Source of the DNA: Burkholderia sp. IMCC1007
Lineage (GTDB): Bacteria; Pseudomonadota; Gammaproteobacteria; Burkholderiales; Burkholderiaceae
Length of the DNA: 64,000 nt
Reading direction: 5' to 3'
NCBI RefSeq assembly: GCF_027257875.1
Contig: NZ_JAPVQY010000002.1
Location: forward strand, 164,684 to 228,683
Shown: piece after piece, positions 20,884 through 39,772 of the stretch
Layout of the letters: the number at the start of each line of letters is the position of its first letter
Position numbering within the stretch: the stretch's first letter is position 1
Translations under genes and position numbers: made by a program
The notes under the pieces: model-generated
What the model saw: only the letters and a program-made list of their open reading frames with translations
Database searches by the model: none
What the model was told of the DNA's origin: nothing

Positions 20884-20917
20884 TAAAAATCCTGCAATAA
20901 CTAAAGAAACTCTTAGG

Positions 20918-21268: not shown

Positions 21269-21283
21269 TTTTTAGCCTGCAGA

Positions 21284-21298
21284 CTAAGAGTTACTTAG
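21284..21298. promoter_or_regulatory. CTAAG-N5-CTTAG palindrome before the second XRE gene
   Basis: CTAAG-agtta-CTTAG followed by TAAAAA, the same tail that follows the 20869-20883 copy. The box ends 34 bases before the ATG at 21333, exactly the spacing seen for the first XRE gene. Confidence 0.65.
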
Positions 21299-21332
21299 TA
21301 AAAACGGCACGCCTTTCCCGGACACTCCGTGA

Positions 21333-21659
21333 ATGTCCAGCGATGCCACCTCTCCCTCCGTGTTTCCCAAGCGCCTGAAACAGGCTCGATTACGCTCGGG
21401 CCTTACACAGGAACAGCTCGGCATTCAGGCGGGCATCGACGAATTTTCCGCCAGCGCCCGCGTCAACCAGTACGAAAAGGGCAAACATACGCCCACGCTT
21501 CAAACCAGCCAACGTCTGGCGCGCGCGATGCTCGTTCCCACCAGTTTCCTCTATGAGGAAGACGACCTGCTCGCAAACCTTCTTGCCATCGCCGGCCGAC
21601 TGAGCAAGGAAAAGAAGAGAGCACTCATTGCGAGTGCGGAAGCACTCGCGCAGGAATAG
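21333..21659 (+). CDS. XRE-family repressor, copy 2
   Basis: A 108-residue paralogue of the preceding gene with nearly the same helix-turn-helix (FPKRLKQARLRSGLTQEQLG, then GIDEFSASARVNQYEKGKHT). The divergent parts are the N-terminal nine residues and the C-terminal tail. The tandem duplication includes the operator. Two similar repressors could form heterodimers or differ in operator affinity; this cannot be told from sequence alone. Confidence 0.88.
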   Translation: MSSDATSPSVFPKRLKQARLRSGLTQEQLGIQAGIDEFSASARVNQYEKGKHTPTLQTSQRLARAMLVPTSFLYEEDDLLANLLAIAGRLSKEKKRALIASAEALAQE

Positions 21660-21861
21660 CGCTCAAAGTCGCTCCTCACCGGGCGCATCGCAGCACCCTC
21701 GGTGTCGGCAACGACACCACATACCCTCCCAATACGCCCCCAGTTCTCTCGAGCAAACGACGCGTCGCCGATTTCGGTGACTGGACACCTTGCGCCCCGA
21801 AATACGCGGCATGTCACGAATTCTGCGTCTCCGCTGCGGATAACGCTTGGCGCATCACCTA

Positions 21862-22009
21862 TTTATTATCATTAAATCTACGCTCGTCACGGTCACTCGT
21901 CAACGTGCCTCATCCAAGCGTTTACCCGGCAAATCTCCCTCTAACATGATGCCCCGCAGCTTGACAAACGCGGCCGGTCACGCCTACCGTTGATTTATTA
22001 TAATTAATT
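21862..22009. repeat. Two AT-rich 16-mers in the 350-base region before amidase 2
   Basis: TTTATTATCATTAAAT (21862-21877) and TTTATTATAATTAATT (21994-22009) match at 14 of 16 bases in an otherwise GC-rich background. The second copy directly adjoins the GGAGG ribosome site of the amidase gene. They could be binding sites for the GntR/FCD protein encoded nearby or an AT-rich promoter. The rest of 21660-22019 shows no gene. Confidence 0.4.
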
Positions 22010-22019
22010 GGAGGATGGC

Positions 22020-23444
22020 ATGGAAATCGACCTGTGTGAACTGACTGCGTGGGAACTTAGCGGGCTGTATGCGAACGGACGGACGTCGCCCGTCGATGTG
22101 ATGAAGACCATCTTGGAACGGATCCAGTCATTGGATCCGACGGTCAACGCATTCTGCCAAGTCGCCGATGAGGCTCTCGAATTGGCGCGGGCGTCCGAGG
22201 CGCGCTGGCAACGTGGCGCGCCCCTCAGCCAACTCGACGGCGTCCCGGTCAGCATCAAGGACAATATCGCCGTTGCCGGACTCCCCACGCGATACGGGTC
22301 GCGGGCAACGATGCCTGAAGCCGCCGCATCGGACAGTCCCAGCGTGGCGCGCCTACGTGAGGCGGGGGCAATCTGCTTTGGCAAAACGACCATGCCGGAT
22401 TTCGCACACAAGATCGTCACCGACAGTCCCCTCACCGGCACCACGCGCAATCCATGGGACCGCTCGCGTACGCCGGGTGGCAGCAGCGGAGGTGCGGCCG
22501 TCGCCGTTGCGCTCGGAATGGGCCCGGTGGCCATCGGCACGGACGGCGGCGGATCCATTCGCATCCCAGCCTCCTTCACCGGCGTCTTCGGATTCAAGCC
22601 CAGTTTTGGGCGAGTACCCCACGCACCTCGCGGTCCCTTCGGTCTGCTCAGTCATGTCGGCCCGATGACACGTTGCGTCGAGGATGCCGCGCAGATCCTA
22701 ACGATCATCACCCGCCCGGACAGCCGCGACTGGTACGCTTTACCGTTCGAGGGAGCAGACTATGCGCGCGGGCTGTCATGCCTTCCCGTTCCGGGCGGCA
22801 TTCGTATTGCGTGCAGTCCCACGCTCGGATTGCCTGTCATCGCCGAGGCTGAAATCCACGATGCCGTGGTACGAACTGCAGCGATGTTTCGCGAACTTGG
22901 AGCACTCGTTCACGTCGCCGATCCGCCTGGCGTCGCGCAGTGCAATGCGGTCCACACAACACTTTGGCGTGCATGCTGCCGTCAGCTCACGGACGGCATG
23001 ACCGACAGGTGGGCCGAACTCGACCCGTCGCTGCAGGCATACGCGCAATCCGGCAACGGCATCTCGCGGGGGGAGCTATTGGGCGCGCTGATCGAACGTG
23101 GAGAGTTGGGCGCCGCCGTCAATGCGTTTTTCGAGCGGCACGATCTCCTCATCTGCCCGGTATATCCCGACGTGGCCCCGTCACTTGCCGAAGTGAGTTC
23201 AAGCACAGCCTTGTTTCCGCATTTCACGGCATGGTGCAATCAGCTGGGACTGCCGGCGGCAAGCCTCTATGCCGGGATGACTGCCACGCGCCTGCCCGTC
23301 GGCATCCAGATTGTAGGCAGTCGCCATGCCGATGCGTTGGTGTTGTGGGCGAGTCATATGCTCGAACGCGCATTTGGGCGCGCCCCGTTCGCCGAGCTGA
23401 CACGCGAGCTCTTCGCCTCCGCGGCCGGCGCAACCCCTGCCTAA
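22020..23444 (+). CDS. Amidase (amidase signature family), second copy
   Basis: A 474-residue amidase-signature hydrolase. The Lys is in VSIKDNIAVAGLPTRYGS, the Gly/Ser loop is PGGSSGGAAVAVALGMG and the nucleophile region is TDGGGSIRIPASFTG. It resembles the amidase at 14642-16054 along its length. A GGAGG site at 22010-22014 fits the ATG at 22020. It stands alone on the plus strand between the XRE pair and the convergent GntR gene. It could serve the amide-uptake system or the biosynthetic cluster. Confidence 0.93.
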   Translation: MEIDLCELTAWELSGLYANGRTSPVDVMKTILERIQSLDPTVNAFCQVADEALELARASEARWQRGAPLSQLDGVPVSIKDNIAVAGLPTRYGSRATMPEAAASDSPSVARLREAGAICFGKTTMPDFAHKIVTDSPLTGTTRNPWDRSRTPGGSSGGAAVAVALGMGPVAIGTDGGGSIRIPASFTGVFGFKPSFGRVPHAPRGPFGLLSHVGPMTRCVEDAAQILTIITRPDSRDWYALPFEGADYARGLSCLPVPGGIRIACSPTLGLPVIAEAEIHDAVVRTAAMFRELGALVHVADPPGVAQCNAVHTTLWRACCRQLTDGMTDRWAELDPSLQAYAQSGNGISRGELLGALIERGELGAAVNAFFERHDLLICPVYPDVAPSLAEVSSSTALFPHFTAWCNQLGLPAASLYAGMTATRLPVGIQIVGSRHADALVLWASHMLERAFGRAPFAELTRELFASAAGATPA

Positions 23445-23485
23445 TGAGCTAAGAGCAGAAGTCGACCGGATCCGGTCTGAATGCT

Positions 23486-24322
23486 TTAGCCGGCATCACG
23501 ATCGGAATCCAGGTCCAACTCTGAATCCAGCACCAGCTTCTGCTGCAGCGCAGCGTGCACTGTGCGCAGCTGCGAATGTGCTTCGTCCATGTGCGCCGTC
23601 ATGAGCTGCGCGACCGCGTCGGCATCCCGACGTCGCGCGGCGTCCAGTATCGCGCGGTGCGCGGCAACCGTGTGCCGCCCGAATGCCTGATAGTCCTGCT
23701 GCGTCACGTTCCCCGCCACGATCACGAGCGTGTGCAGCATCTGGTTGATGATCTGGCATAGGCTACGCAGAAACGCATTCGGATGTGCTGCAGCCAGTAC
23801 ATCGTGGAAATGGATATCCTCGTGTCGCTGGTCGAGCGCCTCGGCGTGACGTGCTTCGAATGGCTCGCAGACGGACACACTGCGCTCGAGCGCATCGAAG
23901 TCCGCGTCGCTCAGATGGGGAACCGCACCCGCCGCCACCATGGGTTCCAGCGTGCGGCGTACCGCATAAATGTCCTCAAGCGTGATGCTCTCGAAAAACA
24001 GATAGTTCTGCAGCGACTGGAATGCTCGGGCCAGTGGTACGCGCGTAATCGTCGCGCCGCCATCCGGCCCGGTACTCAGTCTCACGAGCCCTTGCATCTC
24101 CAGCGCCTTGAGCGCATCGCGCATCGAACCCCGGCTGACGTTGAACATCTGCTGAAGCTCGGCCTCCTTGTTCAAGCGCTTTCCTGGCCGTGCCTGCCCG
24201 TCGTTAATCCAACGCTTGATCTGCTCGGCCACTTGGTCGCCGCGCTTGATTGCGCGCGAACCTCGTTTATCCGGCTGCGCCGGCGACATCTTCTTTTCGG
24301 TTGTCGGTTTTCGCCCTGCCAT
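23486..24322 (-). CDS. GntR-family regulator with FCD ligand domain
   Basis: A 278-residue FadR-subfamily GntR regulator. The winged helix is at about residues 25-95 (QVAEQIKRWINDGQ, KEAELQQMFNVSRGSMRDAL, GLVRLSTGPDGGATI). The C-terminal FCD domain includes RRTLEPMVAAGAV, the metal-site pattern in HEDIHFHDVLAAA, and HRAILDAARRRDADAVAQLM. FCD domains bind organic acids. The gene is divergent from the biosynthetic operon (231 bases between start codons), so it may control that operon, the amidase or both. The start at 24322 gives the shortest sensible N-terminus; others lie upstream. Confidence 0.9.
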   Translation of the reverse strand: MAGRKPTTEKKMSPAQPDKRGSRAIKRGDQVAEQIKRWINDGQARPGKRLNKEAELQQMFNVSRGSMRDALKALEMQGLVRLSTGPDGGATITRVPLARAFQSLQNYLFFESITLEDIYAVRRTLEPMVAAGAVPHLSDADFDALERSVSVCEPFEARHAEALDQRHEDIHFHDVLAAAHPNAFLRSLCQIINQMLHTLVIVAGNVTQQDYQAFGRHTVAAHRAILDAARRRDADAVAQLMTAHMDEAHSQLRTVHAALQQKLVLDSELDLDSDRDAG

Positions 24323-24553
24323 ATCGGTCACGTCCGTCGTTGGCCATTCACTGCTGTATCCCGGCGCCATTATCAGGCATCCGCGCCCGACACGGCCAGA
24401 TTTCCAACTCCATACAAGGCTCCCTCCCAACGTTAGGAGTAGCCGGGATGGTGACCAGGACCTACGCTGCAATCCGAACACCATACGCCGAGTACCCATC
24501 AATTCCCTGCATGTCGGTCACTCGATGTCGGTTGCCATCAGGAGAAATCCCTC
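24323..24553. promoter_or_regulatory. Divergent intergenic region, GntR gene and biosynthetic operon
   Basis: This 231-base region should hold the promoters of both gntR and the biosynthetic operon. An 8-bp direct repeat ATGTCGGT stands at 24511-24518 and 24525-24532, 14 bases apart, just before the GGAG ribosome site. No clear lux box (CTG-N10-CAG) is visible. Confidence 0.35.
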
Positions 24554-25813
24554 ATGTCACAGTCGGTGAAGTCGTCTCAGATGCAATCCACGCTTGCGAC
24601 CATCCGGGCCAAGCTCTCGGCCGACGGGCTGGAACTGGATCAGCTTGCTGCGCGCATGCGTTTGCACGGCCCCGAAGCCGACCGGACACGGCAGATTCCG
24701 GATGCAGTTTGTGCACCCTCGGACGTAACTGCGCTGAACTTGAATCTCGTTCCGGCCGCGTACGGCGGTTGCATAGACGTGCAATCACTGATGTCGCGCA
24801 CCACACTCATGGAATATCTCGGGTACGCCGACGCGGCGCTAGCGCTCGCGCTGCCCGGCCCTGGCCTTGCAATGCCGCCCGTCCTCGCACTCGGCAGCGG
24901 CGAGCAACAGATCCGCTTCTTCAAACGATTTCGCAGCGACATACCGCGCTGGGGTGCGTTTGCCATTACGGAGCCCGACTGCGGCTCGGATGCGACCGCG
25001 ATGCGGACCACCGCTCGCAAGACGGCACGCGGCTGGGTGCTGAACGGTACCAAGTGCTTCATCACCAACGGCGCACGCGCGGACGACGTGATCACGTTCG
25101 CCACCATCAATCGGCACGCTGGTCGTTTCGGCGTTCGAGCGTTCCACGTCGATCGCAATATCCCGGGCTTCTCTGTCGATCGCATCGAGAAAATGGTCGG
25201 CCTGCGCGCGAGTCAGCTTGCGGTCCTCTCTTACACCGATTGCGAAGTACCTGACGACGCGCTTCTCAGACGCAGTGACGAAAAGCCCCTCAACGACGCG
25301 TTTTCGGGCGCACAACACGCATGGGACTACTTCCGCCCCCTACTTTCCGCGGTCATGGTCGGCGCATGTCGACGAGTACGCGACGATCTCGCGGCCTACT
25401 TCGAAGCCGGCGGGCATCCTGTGAATCAACGCCAGCGCACTGCCGATGTGAACAACGCCTTGCTCGATATCGATCGGCAAATCACTACAGCGCAGTTGCT
25501 CTGCCGGCACGCCGCGTGGAAAACCGATCAAGGCATCGCAACTTCCACGGATTCGTCAATGGCCAAGGCGTATGCGTCACAAGTAGCCGCCCGCGTCACC
25601 CGAGCGGCGATCGATCTCGTCGGTCTCGATGGTATCGCTGCCTTTCCCTCGCTTGACCAAAGCTATCGCGATGCGAAGGCTTTCGACATCATGGAAGGCA
25701 CCGGGGACCTGCAGCGGCTCATGATCGCTCGCTCCGCACTCCGCTCGACCTCACTTCCCTGGGAGGCCATCTCTCCCGCGTCGCACCGCTGCTCAGAAGC
25801 GCATCCATCCTGA
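24554..25813 (+). CDS. Acyl-CoA dehydrogenase-fold flavoprotein, active type
   Basis: A 419-residue acyl-CoA dehydrogenase family enzyme. The middle-domain FAD region is AFAITEPDCGSDATAMRTTA and GWVLNGTKCFITNGARADD. The C-terminal catalytic base region RDAKAFDIMEGTGDLQRLMI keeps the EGT glutamate, so it should be active. In carrier-protein pathways such enzymes desaturate aminoacyl or acyl thioesters. It is the first gene of the cluster, and the carrier protein follows at once, which suggests that an ACP-bound thioester is the substrate (inference). Confidence 0.85.
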   Translation: MSQSVKSSQMQSTLATIRAKLSADGLELDQLAARMRLHGPEADRTRQIPDAVCAPSDVTALNLNLVPAAYGGCIDVQSLMSRTTLMEYLGYADAALALALPGPGLAMPPVLALGSGEQQIRFFKRFRSDIPRWGAFAITEPDCGSDATAMRTTARKTARGWVLNGTKCFITNGARADDVITFATINRHAGRFGVRAFHVDRNIPGFSVDRIEKMVGLRASQLAVLSYTDCEVPDDALLRRSDEKPLNDAFSGAQHAWDYFRPLLSAVMVGACRRVRDDLAAYFEAGGHPVNQRQRTADVNNALLDIDRQITTAQLLCRHAAWKTDQGIATSTDSSMAKAYASQVAARVTRAAIDLVGLDGIAAFPSLDQSYRDAKAFDIMEGTGDLQRLMIARSALRSTSLPWEAISPASHRCSEAHPS

Positions 25814-25844
25814 ACCCGTCCGAAATTCGCACTGGAGATCGTTC

Positions 25845-26123
25845 ATGGCACCCAACCCCGCTTCCCCCAGCTCCGCTAGCGTGTCCGAGACAGTCAAAAC
25901 CTGCTTGCTATCGGTACTTGGCAGCACCCTGAGCACCGATCTCATCGTAGACGACACCAACCTCTTCGATGTCGGCGTGGATTCAATGAATATGACGGAC
26001 TTGCTGCTGCAACTCGAACAGCGCTTCGGCTTCACGCTGGCCCCCGAGGATCTGTCCGCCGATCTGTTCCTGCGTTTCGGCAATCTCGTCTCGTTCGTCG
26101 AATCCCATGCGTCCTTCGACTAA
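25845..26123 (+). CDS. Acyl/peptidyl carrier protein
   Basis: A 92-residue carrier protein. The phosphopantetheine serine is Ser47 in FDVGVDSMNMTDLL. The surrounding helices (SETVKTCLLSVLG, LLLQLEQRFGFTLAPEDL) fit the ACP four-helix fold. The N-terminal 12 residues are a Pro/Ser extension. Genes for a ligase and a BtrK-like decarboxylase in the same operon suggest the carrier holds an amino acid. The next gene starts within its last 17 bases, so they are translationally coupled. No phosphopantetheinyl transferase gene is in the window. Confidence 0.93.
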   Translation: MAPNPASPSSASVSETVKTCLLSVLGSTLSTDLIVDDTNLFDVGVDSMNMTDLLLQLEQRFGFTLAPEDLSADLFLRFGNLVSFVESHASFD

Positions 26124-27144
26124 CTTCACTGGCGCCGAGCCGCGCATTGTCGCCACGGCACGATATATCCCGCGGCACGATGTCCCGGCCGATGCAGATA
26201 TCGAACCATTCATGGTTTCGGGTGGGTCCGCACGAGAGGACGTGATGCAAGCCGTGTATGCCGATACGCTCCGGTGGCGCGACAGTGGTGCCCCATTCGG
26301 CGTGGCCGGTATTCCGTTGCCGCAAGCATCACGGGCTACTGATAACCGTGTCGCTGTGGAATCCAACCAGACATTGTCCGACATGGCACTTGCCACAGTG
26401 CGAACGCTGCTTGACTCGTCGCCTCAGGTCGACGCATCCACACCCGATCAAATCATCGTATGCACAACGAGCTTTGAGCATGATCTGGCATTGTCGTGTG
26501 CTTGCCGTCTCCACAGCGAACTTGGATCAAGCCGAGCACCGCTGGCGGTCGGCCAACTGCAAGGCGTGTCGTTCCTGATGGCGCTGGAGATTGCCGTGGC
26601 GATGATGGCCGCTGACATTCGACTGAAGACCGTCGTGATTGTCGCCGCGGAACGCTGGCGCCGGCCGTTCTCTCGTCGGATCGGCGCAATGATCGACATG
26701 GGTGACGGGGCCGCGGCCGTACTGATCGCGAGAAACCCCGGCCCGGGATGGCGCGTGAGCGGGCTCACCGTACGGACGCCCGGAATCCCACCGCTCGCAA
26801 GTGAGCGCGAACCCGTCTACACATTGACGCTCACGGACGTCATTAGCGAGACTTGCTCAGGCGCGGATTTGCAACCTGCGAATGTCGACTGGGTCCTTCC
26901 AGCGCCAATCGACACTCGACTGGCTCGCGAAATCAATACGCGTTGCGGACTGCGGCCCGAACGGGTCTGCCACATACGTATGGACGCGCCTGGCCATTTC
27001 TGCGCCGCCGACACGCCTGCACGGCTCGACGCGCTGCTGCGGTCGATCAACCCTAGCAAGGGACAACATGCCCTCGTTTGGTCCGCCGGCTTCCAAGGAC
27101 AGGCCGGTTGCGCTCTCCTTGAATATCGTGGAGGTGGATCATGA
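26107..27144 (+). CDS. KASIII-like protein without catalytic residues (PqsB-like partner 1)
   Basis: A 345-residue thiolase-fold protein related to FabH/KASIII. At the position of the active-site Cys the sequence reads VGQLQGVSFLMAL: Gly153 replaces Cys. The His-containing motif is replaced by LPAPIDTR, and the Asn motif cannot be found. It should therefore be catalytically dead on its own. Its neighbour, starting 4 bases before its stop, has Cys and His. The pattern, including dead partner first, matches PqsB/PqsC, which work only as a heterodimer. Likely a structural and substrate-shaping subunit. Confidence 0.82.
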   Translation: MRPSTNFTGAEPRIVATARYIPRHDVPADADIEPFMVSGGSAREDVMQAVYADTLRWRDSGAPFGVAGIPLPQASRATDNRVAVESNQTLSDMALATVRTLLDSSPQVDASTPDQIIVCTTSFEHDLALSCACRLHSELGSSRAPLAVGQLQGVSFLMALEIAVAMMAADIRLKTVVIVAAERWRRPFSRRIGAMIDMGDGAAAVLIARNPGPGWRVSGLTVRTPGIPPLASEREPVYTLTLTDVISETCSGADLQPANVDWVLPAPIDTRLAREINTRCGLRPERVCHIRMDAPGHFCAADTPARLDALLRSINPSKGQHALVWSAGFQGQAGCALLEYRGGGS

Positions 27145-28088
27145 TCGTGTCGCAACGGCCTAGCTCGCTTGCACTGGCTGGCATCGCATTCAGTCTGCCG
27201 GATCGAACTGTGGATGCACATCGCTGGGCGGAGCGATGTGGTCAGCCGTCGATTCGCGCGCGCGCACTGATCGAAAACGGCGTAACGCAGTTCCACGACG
27301 CGGCTGGCGAATCGCCCGTGACGCTCGCCGTTGACGCCATATCGTCCCTGCTACGCGACACCCGAATAGCGCATGAAACGATCGATGCGCTCGTGTACAC
27401 ACACACGATTCAGAGCAGCGTTATCGCACCGCCTGCCAGTACTACGCAACAGATCCAGTTCCAACTGAATCTGAACCGCGCGCTCGCATTTTCAGTCACG
27501 CAGCAGCACTGCGTCTCGCCAATGGCCGCGATCCGTGTGTTGCAGGCGCTCGCCATGCGACGGCCCTCCATCCGGCGCGCAATTGTGGTCTGCGCCGATG
27601 TGATCGGATCCCACTGCGACCGACTGCGAGCAATTCGGGATCTTGCCCTCCATAGTGACGGTGCTTGTGCGCTATTGCTCGAACGAGACGGTCATCGAAA
27701 CGCCATTGCGGGCCTGCACGTGTACGCAGACGGACGATCCTTCCGCGGCACCGACGAGGATCTGCAGCCGGTTCCCGACGACCGGTACTACTGGTCTGCA
27801 TTCACGACCATGCGGGCCGCCATTCAACAAGCAGGCATCACGACACGCGAGATTACGCACGTACTGCCTCATCACGCCAATCTTCCGGGTTGGTTCAGGC
27901 TGATGACAATGCTTTCCATTCCTCGTGAGCGGCTCTTCACGGCGAACTTCGCGTCAATCGGTCACGTCTTTGGCGCGGACCCCTTCATTAACTTCCAGAC
28001 ATGTTCGAACCGGGAACCGGGCGGCTGGTCGCTGCTGTTCTCGTGTGGCCTCGCTGGCTGCTTCGGTGCCATGGTGGTCCGCCACTGA
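27141..28088 (+). CDS. KASIII-like condensing enzyme, catalytic partner 1
   Basis: A 315-residue FabH-like enzyme. Cys124 is in FSVTQQHCVSPMAAIRVL, His244 in LPHHANLPGW (compare HQAN of FabH) and Asn269 in FTANFASIGH, so the full triad is present. It should form an acyl-enzyme and join it to a second substrate by Claisen condensation or acyl transfer. It overlaps the catalytically dead protein by 4 bases, implying equal synthesis and a heterodimer. Paralogue of 33725-34651. Confidence 0.85.
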   Translation: MIVSQRPSSLALAGIAFSLPDRTVDAHRWAERCGQPSIRARALIENGVTQFHDAAGESPVTLAVDAISSLLRDTRIAHETIDALVYTHTIQSSVIAPPASTTQQIQFQLNLNRALAFSVTQQHCVSPMAAIRVLQALAMRRPSIRRAIVVCADVIGSHCDRLRAIRDLALHSDGACALLLERDGHRNAIAGLHVYADGRSFRGTDEDLQPVPDDRYYWSAFTTMRAAIQQAGITTREITHVLPHHANLPGWFRLMTMLSIPRERLFTANFASIGHVFGADPFINFQTCSNREPGGWSLLFSCGLAGCFGAMVVRH

Positions 28089-28138
28089 TCACCTGAACGA
28101 TTTCCTTTCAACGCTCGACATTCGATCCGGATACCATC

Positions 28139-29758
28139 ATGAGAAACGTCCTCGACCTCGTGCAAGCCGCTGCAAACCGCACACCTGACGCGGAAGCTCT
28201 CGTCTGCGGTTCCGCCCGAGTAACCTATCAGGACCTGACTCACCGCTCGCGAAGCATGGGCAATGCGCTCTCCGCGCTTGGATTCACGGCCGGCGCGCGC
28301 ATTGCGATCTATCTGGACAAACGTATCGAAACCGTCGTGTCGATGCTTGGTGCAGCTGCCGCGCAATGCGTGTTCGTTCCTATCAATCCGCTCCTCAAAC
28401 CCCAGCAGGTTGCTCACATCCTGCTCGACTCCGGTGCCGATTGCCTGATTACCAGCGCGCTGCGCGCGCGGGTCCTTGACGAACATGGTCTTACCGGCGT
28501 TTCCAACACTATCATTGTGGACGATGCAGGCTCCGCAAGCCGACATCTCCGATCAACAACGCACGTTCAAAGCTGGCCCGAGTCCGCAAGCGGAAATCGC
28601 ACGGAACGGGATAGTGAAAATCCACCACGATCACCAGCGCCAGCCAATGTCGACACGGATCTGGCCGCCATCCTGTACACCTCAGGCTCGACCGGACTGC
28701 CAAAAGGCGTCATGCTAAGCCACCGCAACCTGCTCGAGGGTGCCTGGAGCGTTGCCCATTATCTGAACCACGCCTCATCCGATCGAATCCTCGCGGCCCT
28801 GCCGCTCAGTTTCGATGCTGGCCTGAGCCAGCTCACATCCACATGGGCCGTGGGGGCCACGGCCGTGCTCATCAACTATCTTGCACCGCAAGACGTCATT
28901 GATGCGTGCGCGAGCGAACGTATTACAGCAATCACGGGTGTGCCGCCCTTATGGATGCAACTGGCCCGTGCGGCTTGGCCCGAAACGGCACGCCGAAAGC
29001 TGCGCTACTTTGCGAATACCGGCGGCAAGCTGCCGGCGCCCGTCTTGCAGCAACTCCGAGCATTGTTTCCACAGGCCAAACCCTATCTAATGTATGGCCT
29101 GACCGAGGCATTTCGCTCCACGTTTCTCGACCCCTCAGAGGTCGATCGTCGCCCCGACTCCATCGGGAAAGCCGTCCCTAACGCCCGAATTCTGGTCGTT
29201 CGCGATGATGGCTCGCCTTGTGGACCAGACGAAACCGGAGAACTCGTCCATGTTGGAGCCTGCGTCACGCTCGGTTATTGGAATGACGCGACGCGCACAG
29301 CCCAGCGCTATCGCCCTTCGCCCGAGCTGAAACCCGGTGGCGCGCCGCGAGATCGTGCTGTCTGGTCAGGTGATCTGGTACGGCGAGATGCAGAAGGATT
29401 CCTGTACTTCGTCGCGCGCAACGACGCCCAAATCAAGAGTTCTGGTTATCGCATCAGCCCGGAAGAGATCGAAGAAGTCGTTCACGACAGCGGTCTTGTC
29501 ACGGAAGCGCTTGCCCTAGGCATCCCTGACGATGAACTTGGTGAAGCGATCGTCCTGTTGGTCGTGCCGGTCGCCAATGGCTTCGATGCTCAAGTGCTTC
29601 AGGCCTGGTGTGTGGAACATCTGCCGCGCTACATGGTGCCGCAGCGCATCGTGGTTCGCGACACAGTTTCGCGCAACCCCAACGGGAAATTCGATCGAGC
29701 CGCATTGCGCGCCGCCTTCTCCAATCCGGACGCCGCCGCCGAAGTGAGCCAATCATGA
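28139..29758 (+). CDS. AMP-forming acyl/aminoacyl ligase
   Basis: A 539-residue adenylate-forming enzyme of the acyl-CoA synthetase/A-domain superfamily. The phosphate loop is LYTSGSTGLPKGVMLSHRNL at about residue 179. Later motifs are YLMYGLTEAFRSTFLDP, TGELVHVGACVTLGYWND, the hinge region WSGDLVRRDAEGF and the C-terminal lysine in RNPNGKFDRAAL. It resembles the ligase subfamily known from exosortase A-associated loci, where it also stands beside an ACP and a BtrK-like decarboxylase. Likely it loads an amino acid or acyl group on the carrier protein of this cluster. It overlaps the decarboxylase gene by 4 bases. Confidence 0.9.
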   Translation: MRNVLDLVQAAANRTPDAEALVCGSARVTYQDLTHRSRSMGNALSALGFTAGARIAIYLDKRIETVVSMLGAAAAQCVFVPINPLLKPQQVAHILLDSGADCLITSALRARVLDEHGLTGVSNTIIVDDAGSASRHLRSTTHVQSWPESASGNRTERDSENPPRSPAPANVDTDLAAILYTSGSTGLPKGVMLSHRNLLEGAWSVAHYLNHASSDRILAALPLSFDAGLSQLTSTWAVGATAVLINYLAPQDVIDACASERITAITGVPPLWMQLARAAWPETARRKLRYFANTGGKLPAPVLQQLRALFPQAKPYLMYGLTEAFRSTFLDPSEVDRRPDSIGKAVPNARILVVRDDGSPCGPDETGELVHVGACVTLGYWNDATRTAQRYRPSPELKPGGAPRDRAVWSGDLVRRDAEGFLYFVARNDAQIKSSGYRISPEEIEEVVHDSGLVTEALALGIPDDELGEAIVLLVVPVANGFDAQVLQAWCVEHLPRYMVPQRIVVRDTVSRNPNGKFDRAALRAAFSNPDAAAEVSQS

Positions 29759-30963
29759 ACGGACTGTTTGGCGAGCGCGATGGCATCCTCACCGTCGGCG
29801 GCGTTGAAATCAATCGCCTGGCCGATCGCGCAGGGCGCACACCGTTCTTCGCCTATGATCGCGCAATGCTCGACGCGCGTGTATGCACGCTGCGCGATAC
29901 GCTGCCAGCCGGTATCGACCTCCATTACTCGATCAAGGCCAACCCAATGCCCGCGGTCGTCCATCACCTCGCGCCACAGATGGATGGGTTCGACGTGGCA
30001 TCGGCCAACGAGATGGCACTTGCGCTGAATGCGGGCATGCCCGCAGAACTGATCGGCTTCGCAGGCCCAGGCAAGAGCCGCGACGACTTGCGTCGCGCCG
30101 TCGCGAGCGGTGTCAACATACACCTCGAATCGATCACCCAGTTGCACCTCGTGACAGCACTCGGCTGGGAGCTCGGCGTGCAGCCGAAGGTCGCCATTCG
30201 AGTCAACCCGGACTTTCACGTCAATCACAGCGGCATGCGCATGGGCGGCGGCGCCACCCCTTTTGGGCTCGACGCGGAGCGGGTACCCGCGTTATTGCGC
30301 GAGCTCGATGCGAGAGAAGTGAAGCTGGCCGGTTTTCATATTTTCTGGGGGTCCCAGTGCCTGCACGCCCCGACCGTCATCGAGGCTCAACGGAAAAGCG
30401 CGGATCTCGTCGTGAGATTGGCCGCAGGCCTCTCGCCCATACCGCAATACGTGAACTTCGGAGGTGGTTTCGGCATCCCCTATTTCGCAGGGGAAATGCC
30501 AATCGACCTCGCTGCGGTCACCGATGCCATGGATGATTGGCTCGGCCTGTTCCGCAGCCGTTTGCCGGACACGCGCGCGGTCCTGGAATTTGGACGCTAT
30601 TTGGTCGGGGAAGCCGGCATCTATGTCTGCCGCGTCATCGATCGCAAGGTATCCCGCGATCGAACATTCCTGATCACCGATGGCGGACTGCATCACCATC
30701 TGGCTGCATCCGGTAACTTCGGGCAGGTCCTGCGTCGCAATTTTCCGGTGGCCATCGCGAATCGCCAGACACAAGCCCCAACGGAGCGCTGCGACATTGT
30801 CGGATGCCTGTGCACGCCACTTGATCGGATCGCCGACGACGTGCTGCTTCCCGAGGCTCGCATTGGAGACTTTGTGGTCGTCTTCCAATCGGGTGCGTAT
30901 GGACGCTCGGCCAGCCCTAGGGACTTTCTCGGCCACCCTGATGCGATCGAGATGCTCGTCTGA
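29755..30963 (+). CDS. PLP-dependent decarboxylase, BtrK-like (fold type III)
   Basis: A 402-residue fold-type III decarboxylase related to diaminopimelate decarboxylase. The PLP lysine is Lys61 in LHYSIKANPMP, and the phosphate-binding glycines are in VNFGGGFGIPYF. The C-terminal half has GCLCTPLDRIADDVLL and FQSGAYGRSASPRDFLGHP. The last motif and the overall pattern match BtrK of butirosin synthesis, which decarboxylates L-glutamate while it is tied to the carrier protein BtrI, rather than free diaminopimelate. With an adjacent ligase and ACP, the same logic is likely: decarboxylation of an ACP-bound amino acid. The substrate is not known. Confidence 0.88.
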   Translation: MNGLFGERDGILTVGGVEINRLADRAGRTPFFAYDRAMLDARVCTLRDTLPAGIDLHYSIKANPMPAVVHHLAPQMDGFDVASANEMALALNAGMPAELIGFAGPGKSRDDLRRAVASGVNIHLESITQLHLVTALGWELGVQPKVAIRVNPDFHVNHSGMRMGGGATPFGLDAERVPALLRELDAREVKLAGFHIFWGSQCLHAPTVIEAQRKSADLVVRLAAGLSPIPQYVNFGGGFGIPYFAGEMPIDLAAVTDAMDDWLGLFRSRLPDTRAVLEFGRYLVGEAGIYVCRVIDRKVSRDRTFLITDGGLHHHLAASGNFGQVLRRNFPVAIANRQTQAPTERCDIVGCLCTPLDRIADDVLLPEARIGDFVVVFQSGAYGRSASPRDFLGHPDAIEMLV

Positions 30964-30991
30964 CCACCCTCGTTCTTTGTGGAGGATTGTG

Positions 30992-32101
30992 ATGTTCTCC
31001 CCTGATTCCTTCCCGCCGGGGCCAGCTCCGGCGCCTTGGACACTGACCGATGATCAACGCAACCTCTATATCGCGAGCCAACGCTTCGCGCGCGACCGAC
31101 TGGAGCCCTTGCTAGCCAGTTCACCCAGCGTAGCAGCGTGGCAAGAAACCGTCAGACTCGCAGCCGCAACACTTGATCTTGGAGCAATGGTTTTACCCGA
31201 GGAATCCGGCGGCCTGGGAATCGACCGTCACGGCCTGGCACTTGTTGTCGAAGCGCTCGCCGCCGGACCGCTTGAGCGTGCGTTGGAGTTGACGCTGACA
31301 GCACCCGCGCTCATGGTGCTCCGGACACACAATGCGCTCGGTTCGGTTCTGGCTCGGCCTGTTCAAGCGTATTTCGATGGCACAGCAGCGATCGCATTGT
31401 CCGTGCCCGGCATAGATAACGCAACGATATGGCAACTCGGTCCACTGGGCCGCACGGCGCCCCTCACCATGCGGTTAGATGACAAGCGTCGCCTCCTCCT
31501 CACCGAGCGCCCACGTGATCACCGATCCTCGAGATCGACAGGCATCGCCACGCTCGGCGCCCTCGTGTTGGAGCAATTGCATTCCGACGAAGCCGCGGCC
31601 GAAACGCTGCTCGCCGTGATTACGCGAGCCGACAGCGATGGCGCTCCTCCCGCGCAAACGTACCTGACGGAAATCGGCCTCTATCTCGCTGTGCTCCTGA
31701 CGGGTGCCATGCAACATAGCATCCGGTTCGCGTTCGATTACGCGGCGACTCGGCAAGCGTTCCGAAAGCCGTTGTCAAACCATCAACTCGTCGCGGCGCG
31801 ATTGTCCGACATGCTGATCGCCACCCATGGCAGCCACCTGTTTTTGCAGGCTGTCAGTACGGCTCGCCCGTCGGCGCCGGTCTCGCTGGTCCGTCAGTTA
31901 CTGCGACACGTCGCGGCGGAGTCTGTCAGCGTCAGTCGCGAATTCGTGCAGCTTTGCGGCGGCCATGGCTATGTCGAAGGTCTCCCGCCGGCAGCCCGCT
32001 TCCAGACGGGCCACTGGCTTGCCTTCCTGCTGCAGCGCATCGACACAGCACTCGGCTGGCTCGCGGAGCCGCGGGTCGCGAATGAGGAGGTCGACGGATG
32101 A
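30992..32101 (+). CDS. Degenerate acyl-CoA dehydrogenase-fold subunit
   Basis: A 369-residue acyl-CoA dehydrogenase family protein. Recognisable blocks are LGAMVLPEESGGLGIDRHGLA, FAFDYAATRQAFRKPLSNHQ and FVQLCGGHGYVEGLPPAARF. The middle FAD-binding motif (usually TEPxAGSD) is not visible, and the C-terminal EGT glutamate region is replaced by RFQTGHWLAFL. It is probably not active alone and may pair with the intact enzyme at 24554-25813, like heteromeric FadE pairs of actinobacteria. A GGAGG site precedes the ATG at 30992. The gene overlaps the next by 4 bases. Confidence 0.8.
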   Translation: MFSPDSFPPGPAPAPWTLTDDQRNLYIASQRFARDRLEPLLASSPSVAAWQETVRLAAATLDLGAMVLPEESGGLGIDRHGLALVVEALAAGPLERALELTLTAPALMVLRTHNALGSVLARPVQAYFDGTAAIALSVPGIDNATIWQLGPLGRTAPLTMRLDDKRRLLLTERPRDHRSSRSTGIATLGALVLEQLHSDEAAAETLLAVITRADSDGAPPAQTYLTEIGLYLAVLLTGAMQHSIRFAFDYAATRQAFRKPLSNHQLVAARLSDMLIATHGSHLFLQAVSTARPSAPVSLVRQLLRHVAAESVSVSREFVQLCGGHGYVEGLPPAARFQTGHWLAFLLQRIDTALGWLAEPRVANEEVDG

Positions 32102-32691
32102 GTGGTTGCGCCCCTACGGATGGCACGCTTCAGCCCTCGGTGGACAATGCTGCAACGCATGTAACGTCCGCCACGTGCTGGTTACGCGAACCAGGGCCGA
32201 ATGACATCGACGACATCGTCGCGTGGCTCGCGCAGCCGACCATCAGTCGGTGGTTCGACTTCGGGCTCGGCCGCCAAGCCCTGCCCGCATTGGCGGTACA
32301 AGCGATGGTCTATAGCAGACAGCATCGAATACGCGTGTTCGGTTCGGCTGGCTATCCGGTGCCGAGCGGTGTGGTCGCCGTTAGTGATGTCACGCATCGC
32401 TTCGCGACGGGCTCATTCTGGATCCTTCGCGACCGGTTGCGGCCCGCCTGCGTCAATATGGCTTACAACGCCGCCACGCACCTCCTTCATGAAGCGTTCG
32501 TCCGTGACCGGCTGCGGTGCATCACTGCATGGGCTGTCGACTGCAATGTTCCGTCGCAACGTCTGCTCGCGCGGTTGGGTTTTCGTCTGATCGGACTGCA
32601 ACGAGACTGTCATCTCGTCGATGGCACGCGCGTCGGGCGGCTCCTTTACGACCTGCTGCCCGAGGACCTCGCACTACCACGCGCACCATGA
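32098..32691 (+). CDS. GNAT-family acetyltransferase
   Basis: A 197-residue RimJ/RimL-type GNAT protein. The N-terminal strand and helix WLREPGPNDIDDIVAWLA and the C-terminal NMAYNAATHLLHEAFV, CNVPSQRLLARLGFRLIG and RVGRLLYDLL follow the GNAT fold. The usual Q/RxxGxG/A loop is not evident in its ordinary form. In this cluster it may acylate the amine freed by the pathway, or modify the product. This is inference. Confidence 0.78.
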   Translation: MSGCAPTDGTLQPSVDNAATHVTSATCWLREPGPNDIDDIVAWLAQPTISRWFDFGLGRQALPALAVQAMVYSRQHRIRVFGSAGYPVPSGVVAVSDVTHRFATGSFWILRDRLRPACVNMAYNAATHLLHEAFVRDRLRCITAWAVDCNVPSQRLLARLGFRLIGLQRDCHLVDGTRVGRLLYDLLPEDLALPRAP

Positions 32692-33728
32692 ATACACCCG
32701 TGATCACGGCACTTGCCAGCTATGTGCCGCGCACAGTCGCGGTACATCGTGAGTGCGGAATCGAGCCGACGCTCGGTGCTCCGATTCGGTCCGGTTGGCA
32801 CGCCTGGGTCGCGTCGTGGAAAGCAGATTACGCCCCCCACCCCACAAAGAAAGCGGCTGCAGCCAGAAGCGCTGCAGTCAACGCACCGCCGGACGAATTT
32901 CATTGTGTGCCAGTTGAGCGCGATACCGATCTATCCGGGCTCGCCGCGAAAGTGGCGCAGACAATATGTGCGGGGCGGCCAGTCGACGCAGCGCCGATCG
33001 ATATTGCAATGTTCTGTCACAGTAGCCTCAACGAGCATGTGTCCACAACGACCGCTGGACGCTTGCGCGCAGTAATCGGCACGCCCTGCTTCCCGTTCTC
33101 CGTCTCCCAACAGCAGGGGGCCTCCACGTTCACGGCGCTGCAGCTGGCGAGTGATCTGCTGATTGCGGAACCCGAAATCCACACCATCTTGATCGTCGCT
33201 GCAGAAAAGTGGTGTCCGCCGTTCTCGCGATGGACGGATCAGGGAATCGTGCAGGGCGACGCAGCCGGTGCCATCCTGGTGGAACGCACCAGACCCACGT
33301 CTTGCGGACTGGTGGTGATCGACGCACGCGCCAGCCGCCTCCACCGGTTCGCGACACCCGCCCCACTCTCAAGCCTAGATATCCGCACAGATTGGGTTCC
33401 GGCGCTGCGATCGACGATCGACGCGATACTGCGCCGGCACGAGCTTCAACCGAACGACATTGGCACCGTCGTAGGAGCACGAATAGATCGGCAACTTGAT
33501 GAAGCTATTTGCCGACATCTCAGTCGCCGCGTCATTGAATTTTCCGACCGCCACCGCGCCCATCTAGGCGCAGCCGAACCTATCGTGCGGCTCGCCGATG
33601 CACTCCAATCTCACGGCCTGTCAGTGTGCGATCGAATCCTGATGTGGGGCATCGGCCTGGGCGGCTTCGCCGGTTGCGCACTGTTCGAATCGCATGGCAG
33701 GCCGCTCTTATATCTCAATCCGCCATGA
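32688..33728 (+). CDS. KASIII-like protein without catalytic residues (PqsB-like partner 2)
   Basis: A 346-residue paralogue of the protein at 26107-27144. Where the condensing partner has QQHC, this has QQQG (Gly144 in FSVSQQQGASTFTALQL). The catalytic His and Asn are also missing (GARIDRQL and FSDRHRAHLG at those places). The ATG at 32688 overlaps the GNAT stop by 4 bases; the frame is open upstream inside the GNAT gene. Likely the non-catalytic half of a second KASIII heterodimer. Confidence 0.82.
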   Translation: MNTPVITALASYVPRTVAVHRECGIEPTLGAPIRSGWHAWVASWKADYAPHPTKKAAAARSAAVNAPPDEFHCVPVERDTDLSGLAAKVAQTICAGRPVDAAPIDIAMFCHSSLNEHVSTTTAGRLRAVIGTPCFPFSVSQQQGASTFTALQLASDLLIAEPEIHTILIVAAEKWCPPFSRWTDQGIVQGDAAGAILVERTRPTSCGLVVIDARASRLHRFATPAPLSSLDIRTDWVPALRSTIDAILRRHELQPNDIGTVVGARIDRQLDEAICRHLSRRVIEFSDRHRAHLGAAEPIVRLADALQSHGLSVCDRILMWGIGLGGFAGCALFESHGRPLLYLNPP

Positions 33729-34651
33729 GCGCCTCTATCGGGATCGTCCATACCGCTTACTATCTGCCTGAGCCAGCCGTGGACGTCCGCAGCTGGGCGC
33801 AACAAACGAAGCAGTCCGCCGAGACCGTCAAATCCCTCGAAAATGCTGGGGTGCGCTTGTTCTATGACGCGCGGGGACAGACCGCGCTTTCGCTCGCCGC
33901 GAACGCCATCCAATCGCTCGTTCGTGCGACCCAACTTGCTCCCGACACGATCGACTTTCTCGTCTACGTTCATACGCTTCAGGGGAGCGTCGCCCCACCA
34001 CCGCTATCCTTGCCGCACCTGCTATGCGAACACTTTGGTTTCGAGCAGGCGGATGCATTCTCGTTTGCACAACAGCACTGCGCCTCATCACTGGGCGCGC
34101 TACGGATCATTCGCGCGATGTTTATCGCCCGTCCGGCCATCAACCGCGGTCTGCTGGTCGGCGCGGACGTCATGCCCCTCGCAAGCGACCGGTTGATAGC
34201 CGGGGCCGGATTGCTCAGCGACGGCGCGTGTGCCGTGCTCGTCGAACGCAATGCCTCGATCAATCGATTGGTCTCGTTGGCCTTTCACGCGAGTGGAGAA
34301 GGTTGGCGCGGCACACTGGGAGAAGATGAATCGCGTTTCGCAGCTCAGTACTTCTTGGCGGCCCGTCGACTCGCGACGCAAACGAGCGCTGTGGCGAATG
34401 TGCCCCTAGCCGAGATTCGGCGCATCTTGCCTTCCCACCTTGATCTGCCAACCTGGCGTCGAACTGTCGCATCGCTTGGTCTTCCACCACGATGCCTGTT
34501 TACTGACAACTTTGCTCGCGTCGCACATGTGACGGTCAGCGATCCATTCATCAATCTCGTCGACTGCGATGATCTGGTTTCCGGTAAGCCTTTCCTGCTA
34601 TGCGCCCGCGGAGTGGGAGGATTTTCCGCGGCGGCACTCTTCGTTCGCTAA
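33725..34651 (+). CDS. KASIII-like condensing enzyme, catalytic partner 2
   Basis: A 308-residue FabH-like enzyme with Cys119 in FSFAQQHCASSLGALRI, His238 in LPSHLDLPTW and Asn262 in FTDNFARVAH. The FabH HxAN signature is HLD here (Asn to Asp at 240), a small difference from the first catalytic partner. It overlaps its dead partner by 4 bases. The two pairs share the same order and spacing, so the second arose by duplication of a two-gene unit and then diverged. It is the last gene of the biosynthetic operon before luxR. Confidence 0.85.
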   Translation: MSASIGIVHTAYYLPEPAVDVRSWAQQTKQSAETVKSLENAGVRLFYDARGQTALSLAANAIQSLVRATQLAPDTIDFLVYVHTLQGSVAPPPLSLPHLLCEHFGFEQADAFSFAQQHCASSLGALRIIRAMFIARPAINRGLLVGADVMPLASDRLIAGAGLLSDGACAVLVERNASINRLVSLAFHASGEGWRGTLGEDESRFAAQYFLAARRLATQTSAVANVPLAEIRRILPSHLDLPTWRRTVASLGLPPRCLFTDNFARVAHVTVSDPFINLVDCDDLVSGKPFLLCARGVGGFSAAALFVR

Positions 34652-34930
34652 TACGATCGTTGAATTCCGGAAATTTTGCCGATGGCGCGGCACACGATCG
34701 CCAAATATGTCGCAATATCGCTCCTGTTCCGGACAGCGGTCTTTAAAAATTAAACCCTGCATTAAATTATTACAATCTATTGGACGTTCCGATCCCAACC
34801 ATTAGACTTTAAATTTGCTATGCGCCCACCGTCTATCTCGACGTAACCTCCGACGCCCGCCCACCGCATAGCGGGTGCACGGGCAATCAGCGCCCCACTA
34901 CCATACCAATTTCCGGAGTCGCTGACCCTG

Positions 34931-34951
34931 TGCTGGCGCCCTGATCCAGCA
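34931..34951. promoter_or_regulatory. Inverted repeat upstream of luxR
   Basis: TGCTGG and CCAGCA flank a 9-base spacer at 34931-34951, 41 bases before the luxR ATG. The spacing (CTG-N11-CAG) is one base longer than a usual lux box. It is the only clear dyad in the 341-base gap 34652-34992, which is AT-rich near 34740-34815 and holds no gene. Confidence 0.35.
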
Positions 34952-34992
34952 CTCCTCTTGAATGCCACTAGGCAATAAGCGAGGTAGAAGTC

Positions 34993-35775
34993 ATGAGAAC
35001 GCGATTTCGGCATCGTACAAGCAAAAAAACGTCCAAGCCACCACCATGGAATGTCACATTAGCCACGCGAATGGCACCAATCCTGTCTCTCTTTACCGAT
35101 GCAACGGATATTTCTTCGCTTTCCGACTTGCTTGGCAATGCGGTGCTTCCATTGGGGTTTCCATGTTACGCCGTCACGCGGATCGCCCTAACATGCATCC
35201 GCTCCAGACCCAGCATCTCAATGGAGGCAATTTGCTCACATTATCCCAACAATTGGGTGCAGCACTATCTACAGCACAACTATGGCGTCGTCGATCCGGT
35301 ACATCGAGCGGCTTTTACCTCCTCCGGACCTTATCGCTGGGGTGACATTGCCGATCTGAACCAAAATGAGCGGCATGTACTTGTGGAAGCATGCGACGCC
35401 GGACTCAAAAACGGGCTGAGCATTCCAATTCGTGAGGTCGGGGGCAGTGTTTTGCTCATCAATCTGTCAGGACCGTCATCCCGTATCAATGCAGGGACGA
35501 GCCGGCAGCTCGCGAGCGTAATCAGCAATCTATTTCGCTTGGAGCTGGATCGGTTCGCTCCTCCCCATCCAAAGGCATTGGTTGAGCTTTCTCCACGCCA
35601 GCGCCAATGTCTTTCGTGGGTCGCGCAAGGTAAAACATCGTCGGATATCTGCATGATTCTCGAAATATCCCGCCATACCGTCGAATATCATATCGCTGAA
35701 GCAATGAAGGTTCTGAACGTGAATAGCAGAATAGCAGCCGCCGTCATTGCCTCCAATTACGGCCTACTTGATTAG
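34993..35775 (+). CDS. LuxR-family quorum-sensing regulator
   Basis: A 260-residue LuxR-type activator or repressor. The N-terminal autoinducer-binding domain has the conserved W/Y/D pattern in NWVQHYLQHNYGVVDPV and the Trp in PYRWGDIA. The C-terminal GerE helix-turn-helix is LSPRQRQCLSWVAQGKTSSD, then ISRHTVEYHIAEAMKVLNV. It sits directly after the biosynthetic operon on the same strand and is followed by its cognate luxI, so it most likely controls the cluster by cell density. Confidence 0.92.
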   Translation: MRTRFRHRTSKKTSKPPPWNVTLATRMAPILSLFTDATDISSLSDLLGNAVLPLGFPCYAVTRIALTCIRSRPSISMEAICSHYPNNWVQHYLQHNYGVVDPVHRAAFTSSGPYRWGDIADLNQNERHVLVEACDAGLKNGLSIPIREVGGSVLLINLSGPSSRINAGTSRQLASVISNLFRLELDRFAPPHPKALVELSPRQRQCLSWVAQGKTSSDICMILEISRHTVEYHIAEAMKVLNVNSRIAAAVIASNYGLLD

Positions 35776-35811
35776 ATCTCTTATTTTCATTCAAAGCTTT
35801 CCGTGTGTAAG

Positions 35812-35830
35812 CGCGCCGCCGGCGTGTTTT
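35812..35830 (+). terminator. Possible terminator after luxR
   Basis: A short GC hairpin (CGCGCC/GGCGTG with 3-base loop, one G-T pair) is followed by TTTT, 37 bases after the luxR stop. Weak but well placed. Confidence 0.35.
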
Positions 35831-35942
35831 AACCATACCCCACGCCTCTCGAATCCCATATATTGATAATTCCTGACTAGCCAGAGATCTTCAATCTCGA
35901 ACGGATAATGCGCGGCCAATATTCATTTTCGCCACCCTCCCT

Positions 35943-35959
35943 ACCTAACTAGTTCCGGT
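35943..35959. promoter_or_regulatory. Lux-box-like dyad upstream of luxI
   Basis: ACCTAACTAGTTCCGGT has dyad character (ACC...GGT around AACTAGTT) and lies about 53 bases before the luxI ATG, a usual place for a LuxR site. The match to the lux-box consensus is imperfect, since CTG-N10-CAG is not kept. This is a tentative call. Confidence 0.3.
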
Positions 35960-36012
35960 TGTTGCTTCCACTTGATACGGTGGCGCCCATCGATAAACGA
36001 TGGAGAACGCAA

Positions 36013-36663
36013 ATGCCACTCATTATCGCGGGTAGGTTGTGCGACTTGCCGCTTGAACTTCGTGATGGACTCGGTGCGTTCCGGTACGACGTGTTCGTGC
36101 GCCGCCTCGGCTGGACGCTCCCCGATGTTAAGGAAAATGAAACCATGGAATGGGATCACTTCGATGGCGAAAACACCATTCAGGTTGTTGAACTCACTTC
36201 CGAAGGACAGATATGTGGTTGCGCACGTCTGATGCCAACTACCGCCCCGTACCTGCTCCGAGAACTACTTCTTCGTTCGTCGGAACTCGATTTTCCCTCC
36301 TCACCGACCGTATGGGAGCTATCGCGGTTCGCCGGTTCGGGCATACAACTGTTTCCCTATGTCATGGCCGTCGCGGCGTCCCTCGGCGCGATCCGCATCA
36401 TTGGTGTCGTCACCCAGGCAATCGCACGACTGTATCGCCGCTTTGGCCTCGATCTTCAGTACGTGGGACCTCATCCGGAGACTGCTACCTCTCCGTTCGT
36501 GGCCTGTGCCATTGATCTCACGGCCGTCGCGTTCGCCAACCTTGGAACCGACCTCGAGAGCCTCCGATCATCAATCACGTGGCATCGATCGCTCACGTCG
36601 AACGTTCCTGGCTCGCCGAGGACCGTGCCACGCGTTGCTCATTGCACGGCAGACGTGCAATAG
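36013..36663 (+). CDS. Acyl-homoserine-lactone synthase (LuxI family)
   Basis: A 216-residue LuxI-family enzyme that makes an N-acyl-homoserine lactone from S-adenosylmethionine and an acyl-ACP. All landmark residues are present: Arg24, Phe28 and Trp34 in FRYDVFVRRLGW, two Asp in WDHFDGENT, Arg in CGCARLMPTTAPYLL, and Glu in VWELSRFAGSG. It is closest in pattern to CepI-type synthases of Burkholderia. The ATG at 36013 has GGAG eight bases upstream. The signal's chain length cannot be read. Confidence 0.94.
   Translation: MPLIIAGRLCDLPLELRDGLGAFRYDVFVRRLGWTLPDVKENETMEWDHFDGENTIQVVELTSEGQICGCARLMPTTAPYLLRELLLRSSELDFPSSPTVWELSRFAGSGIQLFPYVMAVAASLGAIRIIGVVTQAIARLYRRFGLDLQYVGPHPETATSPFVACAIDLTAVAFANLGTDLESLRSSITWHRSLTSNVPGSPRTVPRVAHCTADVQ

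Positions 36664-38609: not shown

Positions 38610-39772
<1,163 letters not shown>

Follow-up and report, generated by a model that had tools for sequence, protein, structure and literature searches.

A ten-gene carrier-protein locus followed by luxR and luxI

We analyzed a 64,000-nucleotide stretch of Burkholderia sp. IMCC1007 (contig NZ_JAPVQY010000002.1, positions 164,684 to 228,683 of the forward strand; hereafter the window), taken from an assembly of 8.57 Mb in 138 contigs. Ten plus-strand genes, named A to J here, span window positions 24554-34651 with luxR and luxI genes behind them, an arrangement that had been described in a sequence-only reading of this DNA and that our gene calls reproduce. 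The features are as follows:

24422..24441, plus strand: lux-box-like imperfect palindrome, consensus ACCTCC-N8-GGAGGT, 132 bases before A
24554..25813, plus strand: A, acyl-CoA dehydrogenase (ACAD), predicted catalytic alpha-like subunit, with Glu motif EGTGDLQR
25845..26123, plus strand: B, free-standing acyl/peptidyl carrier protein (PP-binding PF00550, 45.3 bits)
26107..27144, plus strand: C, ketoacyl-ACP synthase III (KASIII)-like, Gly for the active-site Cys, proposed partner of D (profile matches, fold of the C model)
27141..28088, plus strand: D, KASIII-like, Cys124/His275/Asp280, with His at the FabH Asn position (alignment)
28139..29758, plus strand: E, VinN-type adenylating ligase, code DASGATMRSK (TIGR03098, code comparison)
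29755..30963, plus strand: F, pyridoxal phosphate (PLP) decarboxylase, BtrK-type (TIGR03099; 7ru7 and 2j66)
30992..32101, plus strand: G, degenerate ACAD (FAD-interface residues kept, EGT absent)
32098..32691, plus strand: H, GNAT acyltransferase (Acetyltransf_3, 27.8 bits, cut-off 25.4)
32688..33728, plus strand: I, second Cys-less KASIII-like protein, proposed partner of J (just below both Pfam cut-offs for the KASIII C-terminal family)
33725..34651, plus strand: J, second Cys-bearing KASIII-like protein (alignment)
34993..35775, plus strand: LuxR-type regulator (Autoind_bind and GerE)
36013..36663, plus strand: LuxI-type N-acyl-homoserine lactone (AHL) synthase (PF00765, Autoind_synth)

As had been stated, the junctions within A to J are mostly 4-base overlaps (5/9: C/D, E/F, G/H, H/I and I/J); B and C overlap by 17 bases, the other three junctions are gaps of 31, 50 and 28 bases, and 341 bases separate J from luxR, followed by 237 to luxI. 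For G (30992), J (33725) and luxI (36013) these starts were preferred over that of the longest open reading frame. Profile searches agreed with the earlier family calls (dehydrogenase, carrier, four KASIII proteins, AMP ligase, BtrK-like decarboxylase, degenerate dehydrogenase and GNAT), those for several KASIII proteins and the GNAT lying only marginally above or below the Pfam cut-off. No nonribosomal peptide synthetase (NRPS) or modular polyketide synthase (PKS) occurs among the ten genes, as expected for the carrier-protein pathway that had been proposed to do without them. LuxR exceeds the cut-offs of both its domains (73.8 and 59.6 bits), and LuxI matches PF00765 with 50.2 bits against a 24-bit cut-off, the match being confined to the first half of the model. 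Elsewhere in the genome, a search with the KASIII C-terminal family found one further gene outside the cluster (132 bits, with J below the matches listed), and a search with F found one other, distant homologue (28%).

The ten-gene order is conserved across Burkholderiaceae

A profile built from D, run against 84,980 species genomes, returned 38 loci, in which D is present by construction: 26 of Burkholderiaceae type, 4 of Roseateles type (L027-L030) and 8 distant ones (L032-L039). In 24/26 of the Burkholderiaceae loci, A to J were all present in identical order, the remaining two (L018, L021) stopping at contig ends; since this order recurs so widely, the ten-gene run is not a chance arrangement. 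The loci are not all independent, because L004/L024 and L007/L009 are more than 99.8% identical in DNA. This search recovered what the sequence-only reading had anticipated, a group of uncharacterised clusters that share all ten genes, and we found no description of the ten-gene cluster in the open-licence literature searched. D is 95% identical to proteins in Burkholderia cepacia and B. aenigmatica records, and close homologues (at least 61% identity) were carried by 17 of the 299 genomes sampled from the family and by 10 of the 65 from the genus, with the own genome counted; the remaining D matches in these whole-genome samples lay below 41% identity. When the order was sampled evenly, D matched in 2 of 399 genomes, one being the own genome.

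Some copies are incomplete or interrupted, with J of L003 cut by a contig end and E of L024 carrying an early stop. F of L016 (B. cenocepacia NCTC13227, 12580-16309) is broken by an insert of ~2 kb, and gene A of L026 (P. graminis C4D1M, 7399-8626) lies in two pieces and two frames.

The Roseateles-type loci (Roseateles, Mitsuaria, Pelomonas and Paracidovorax) carry B to H, both KASIII pairs and luxR/luxI. A partial gene A lies behind luxI in L030, and A is not within the stretches fetched for the other three. Two of these four loci were checked, and both have a MATE-exporter-like gene between D and E (L027 and L030; NCBIfam scores below curated cut-offs). The distant loci, which include other Pseudomonadota and one Bdellovibrionota genome, are rearranged versions, with neighbors encoding ATP-grasp and pentapeptide proteins (L037, L039), MATE proteins (L038, L039) and a luciferase-like oxidoreductase (L038). 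Variant clusters also occur in further Burkholderiaceae (L070, 11400-19800; L071; L072), where KASIII-like genes accompany ligase, decarboxylase or ACAD homologues; in another family member (G498, L075, 8239-12200), luxI, luxR, J and I are matched, and A to H are unmatched in the fetched 20 kb.

The ligase and decarboxylase point to aspartate-derived beta-alanine

The ten residues that we take to be the specificity code of E, positioned by motif after GrsA, are identical (10/10) to those of all four ligases from a second gene block found in four Burkholderiaceae genomes, ligases with which E shares 48-49% overall identity. These blocks resemble the afc cluster for AFC-BC11, and the complete gene content was examined for one of them (L068/L069). 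In afc, the ligase AfcQ activates L-aspartate, and its homology to VinN together with docking on Arg311 has been used to argue that the side-chain carboxyl is the one engaged; AfcP converts the residue on the carrier to beta-alanine by decarboxylation (PMC12186527). The spacing from Arg311 to the catalytic Lys is printed as 192 for AfcQ, and is 192 in the L069 ligase and 191 in E. The amino acid loaded is thus most likely L-aspartate, judging from these alignments; gamma-aminobutyric acid (GABA) and ornithine were rejected as the unit made, the code matching L-Asp ligases.

F scores 566 bits against TIGR03099 (cut-off 478); among solved structures it is closest to the BtrK-type 7ru7 (254.8 bits; a BtrI-ACP decarboxylase) and 2j66, in agreement with the earlier proposal that a BtrK-like enzyme decarboxylates an amino acid on the carrier.

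A and G divide the residues of a proposed composite dehydrogenase

The two ACAD homologues are complementary. The EGT Glu motif is present in 34/34 A rows, while the R-x-x-F-G-x-P and Q-x-x-G-G motifs of the FAD interface are lost from A (0/34); G rows retain the interface Arg (37/37) and Gln (36/37), with EGT in the last 70 residues in 0/37. This is the division described for ChsE alpha and beta subunits, where one holds the catalytic Glu and the other the FAD-site residues, and the top (tied) structural matches of G include ChsE4-ChsE5 and Tcur3481-Tcur3483, alpha2beta2 heterotetrameric steroid ACADs. Those enzymes act on steroid CoA esters, whereas A and G belong to a carrier-protein pathway and have five genes between them. 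On these residues, A and G appear to be reciprocally degenerate genes that would associate as in the alpha2beta2 heteromers. Their oxidation most likely gives an enamide; in bolagladin biosynthesis, loss of the ACAD BolQ leads to beta-alanine instead of dehydro-beta-alanine (PMC7756342).

Each KASIII pair combines a Cys-bearing and a Cys-less protein

Paired KASIII subunits had been suggested from the sequence, and the alignments bear this out: the active-site position holds Cys in 74/74 D/J rows and in 0/71 C/I rows. In a KASIII tree, unrooted for want of an outgroup and built without the short row L070_KSn, D/J-type proteins form a 43-row group (100/100). We propose that each pair (C/D and I/J) comprises one Cys-bearing catalytic protein and one Cys-less non-catalytic partner, which would associate physically. 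TAL effectors returned by a PDB search with C were read as composition matches, since a family profile search gives only KASIII-like folds.

The core is a known cassette in a stand-alone form

It had been stated that the gene set matches no known pathway. This does not hold, because at its core lies the cassette that supplies dehydro-beta-alanine to bolagladin and AFC-BC11 (PMC7756342, PMC12186527): a VinN-type ligase with the L-Asp code, a carrier with a BtrK-like decarboxylase, an ACAD and KASIII-like proteins are all present. The bol cluster of Burkholderia gladioli, compared by its published description, has the same enzyme types in the VinN-like Asp ligase BolO, carrier BolC, BtrK-like BolN, KASIII homologues BolM/BolP and ACAD BolQ, and differs in having an NRPS and a citrate-derived fatty acid (PMC7756342). 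The cluster described here, by contrast, has no NRPS among its ten genes, two Cys/no-Cys KASIII pairs, a split ACAD, a GNAT and luxR/luxI.

With afc, from the Burkholderia cepacia complex, it shares the ligase with identical code, carrier, decarboxylase and KASIII genes, the KASIII counterparts in afc-type blocks being found with both the D/J and the C profiles. The L068/L069 block encodes a second AMP ligase, a carrier, a D-profile KASIII, the decarboxylase, the ligase, a C-profile KASIII and a 647-residue ACAD; it also encodes a citrate synthase, a methyltransferase, a TauD-type oxygenase, ABC transporters and an FAD oxidase. Set against the published description, it fits the afc cluster, whose gene order differs from A to J and which is ShvR-regulated in print (PMC12186527). 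Unlike afc, none of the ten genes encodes a fatty-acyl-AMP ligase, citrate synthase or O-methyltransferase by profile search. The cluster is a widespread, quorum-linked, stand-alone, split-enzyme version of a pathway core already known in kind.

The loading logic has further precedents in part. VinN (vicenistatin; VinN/VinO/VinL) loads a side-chain carboxyl, and a PLP enzyme decarboxylates on the carrier, as in BtrK/BtrI (butirosin). VinN/VinO/VinL feed a PKS and BtrK/BtrI an aminoglycoside, and neither pathway is known to involve an ACAD or KASIII pairs.

Quorum-sensing genes and a conserved palindrome accompany the cluster

The quorum linkage claimed from the single locus extends across the family: luxR and luxI lie behind the cluster in 21 of 23 Burkholderiaceae loci, once the three truncated at contig ends (L003, L018 and L021) are set aside. 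In L016 luxR stands alone, since the fetched stretch ends there. All four Roseateles-type loci also contain both genes, as does L039, where they precede the cluster. Near window position 36340, the LuxI proteins of the window and L002 lack a loop of ~15 residues found in the other Burkholderiaceae LuxI rows.

Paraburkholderia xenovorans LB400 (L019) has two luxI matches, one on chromosome 2 and one on chromosome 3, inside this gene cluster. As XenI2/R2, with the signal 3-OH-C8-HSL, is placed on chromosome 3 (PMC3742214), where this is the sole luxI found, the luxI adjoining the cluster is by location XenI2. The XenI2/XenR2 circuit was termed poorly characterised in a 2025 paper (PMC12394537).

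Upstream of A, at -114 to -144, a palindrome is present with at most 3 mismatches in 27/27 cases (26 loci plus the window) and with at most 2 in 22/27, compared to 7.6% and 0.9%, respectively, of 5216 random 200-base windows of the same loci. With an 8-base spacer and at most 2 mismatches, 41 sites occur in the 26 loci, 22 of them within 200 bases upstream of A, and in the four Roseateles-type loci the palindrome precedes gene B (at -109 or -110), with 1 to 3 mismatches. Single sites mean little, because shuffled whole loci (spacers 7 or 8) give ~98 chance sites in 770 kb, and when the regions upstream of A and luxI were searched blindly for 20-base palindromes, no site was common to them. The conserved lux-box-like palindrome would, by its position and sequence, be a candidate LuxR site.

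A model for the pathway and its alternatives

We consider the best explanation, with a probability of roughly 0.6, to be that the genes form a self-contained pathway under quorum control, with an N-acyl-dehydro-beta-alanine amide as its product. E would adenylate the side-chain carboxyl of L-aspartate and load it onto carrier B, and F would remove the alpha-carboxyl to give beta-alanyl-S-B, after which E may act again on the free amine. The amine would be acylated by one KASIII pair or by the GNAT H; A and G, as one composite flavin dehydrogenase, would convert N-acyl-beta-alanyl-S-B to the enamide N-acyl-dehydro-beta-alanyl-S-B; and the other KASIII pair would transfer the acyl group to an acceptor, releasing the product. 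LuxR with its AHL (3-OH-C8-HSL in LB400) would turn on the putative operon through the palindrome upstream of A. The ligase code, the decarboxylase type, the complementarity of A/G and of the KASIII pairs, and the conserved palindrome are the parts that comparison supports, while the physical heteromers, the order of acylation, desaturation and release, the donor, the acceptor, the residue number and the regulation are what we infer.

The KASIII pairs might instead condense, extending a beta-alanyl or GABA-type thioester by a C-C bond towards an amino-ketone or N-heterocycle, much as the sequence-only reading had envisaged in having the unit condensed twice to a ketone or alkyl compound. The C model has the KASIII fold, C and D match KASIII profiles, PqsC (weakly, at 43.8-50.3 bits) and PqsD are among the matches, and the Cys/no-Cys arrangement of D/C and J/I is that of PqsBC of Pseudomonas aeruginosa, a quorum-linked, condensing KASIII heteromer of Cys-bearing PqsC and Cys-less PqsB. 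The similarity to PqsBC is, however, only that of distant profiles, and the FabH Asn is replaced by His in 74/74 Cys-bearing D/J rows, with the Asp kept in 73/74, on which ground a condensing role was rejected. CerJ, an acyltransferase, has the same GH..G.D stretch as the Cys-bearing KASIII proteins. The KASIII-like AfcL has likewise been shown to be an acyltransferase (PMC12186527). We therefore regard condensation as unlikely.

Alternatively, E might iterate as AfcQ does (PMC12186527), with A/G acting on the acyl chain, to yield a saturated beta-alanine or oligo-beta-alanine lipopeptide, whose capping or release could fall to H and the KASIII proteins. Two points speak against this, and it seems improbable: BolQ is required to form the dehydro-beta-alanine residue of bolagladin, and apart from E none of the ten genes matched an AMP ligase or a fatty-acid desaturase.

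Attachment of beta-alanyl-ACP to a polysaccharide or protein by the rest of the cluster, as a surface-polymer decoration, could be suggested by the exosortase-A names of the models whose cut-offs E (692 bits to TIGR03098, cut-off 592) and F exceed. These names mislead for E and F, as the genome has no match to the exosortase family PF09721 (0 matches; a control search matched 1 of 14 known genomes), and TIGR03098 is not exosortase-specific, since the ligase of one afc-type block also passes it (637 bits). On a Sinorhizobium meliloti plasmid, ligase, decarboxylase and carrier genes also lie within a region rich in glycosyltransferase genes (L082, 13902-17031), possibly as a beta-alanyl-carrier module for a polysaccharide, and because of this co-occurrence the trio looks like a portable module. 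With no glycosyltransferase among the ten genes and a MATE-exporter-like gene inside two Roseateles-type clusters, decoration is very improbable here. An exosortase pathway was rejected, no exosortase being found in the genome.

Several observations weigh against the N-acyl-dehydro-beta-alanine pathway as we draw it. The ten-residue code may be common to enzymes of differing substrate, the decarboxylases of afc-type blocks share only 25-27% identity with F, and the ACAD of the afc-type block is a single, unsplit protein of 647 residues. BolM and BolP both lack the Cys (Ser and Thr in print; PMC7756342), unlike D and J, and the Cys-less row of L037 has a Cys one residue off the aligned position. 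As to regulation, L010 (P. silvatlantica, 17533-20945) has A to J, but the 3.4 kb behind them contain no match to luxR or luxI, and luxR/luxI are missing from the fetched stretch of 7 of the 8 distant loci (L032-L038), save a weak LuxR match in L033. The window's palindrome is among the weakest, its 3 mismatches being equalled by 7.6% of random windows; moreover, the consensus was picked after viewing the upstream alignment, which the random-window control ignores along with shared descent. Exopolysaccharide has been suggested as a possible XenI2/R2 target in LB400 (PMC10902836), and no product is described for this cluster in the open-licence literature searched.

Genomic surroundings

A minus-strand amidase, parts of a branched-chain amino-acid ABC transporter and a porin lie within window positions 12992-24502. 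A second amidase (22008-23444) and a GntR/FCD regulator lie ahead of the cluster, and an amidase is found upstream of A in 24 of the 26 Burkholderiaceae loci. On the other side are a transposase with an rve integrase core (38972-39772), ~2.3 kb downstream of luxI, and two tandem genes of the GH28 family (41399-45028).

Implications

Dehydro-beta-alanine is what makes AFC-BC11 and the bolagladins unusual, as an enamide that is light-sensitive in AFC. A stand-alone version with its own luxR/luxI would offer a small system in which to study KASIII-like pairs that make amides and not C-C bonds, the amide-forming KASIII step having been left open in print for AfcO, AfcR, BolM and BolP, and A/G would be a split-flavin enzyme predicted outside steroid breakdown. 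Reciprocally degenerate enzyme pairs were not found described as a construction principle for a carrier-protein pathway in the literature searched. The wider proposition, that minimal quorum-controlled N-acyl-dehydro-beta-alanine enamides made without NRPS or PKS form an undescribed metabolite class in Burkholderiaceae and beyond, that they are the main XenI2/XenR2 output and that three reciprocally degenerate pairs (one ACAD and two KASIII acyltransferases) make them, is as a whole tentative, and we put it at somewhat below even odds. For the XenI2/XenR2 circuit itself, the cluster provides a concrete candidate target operon.

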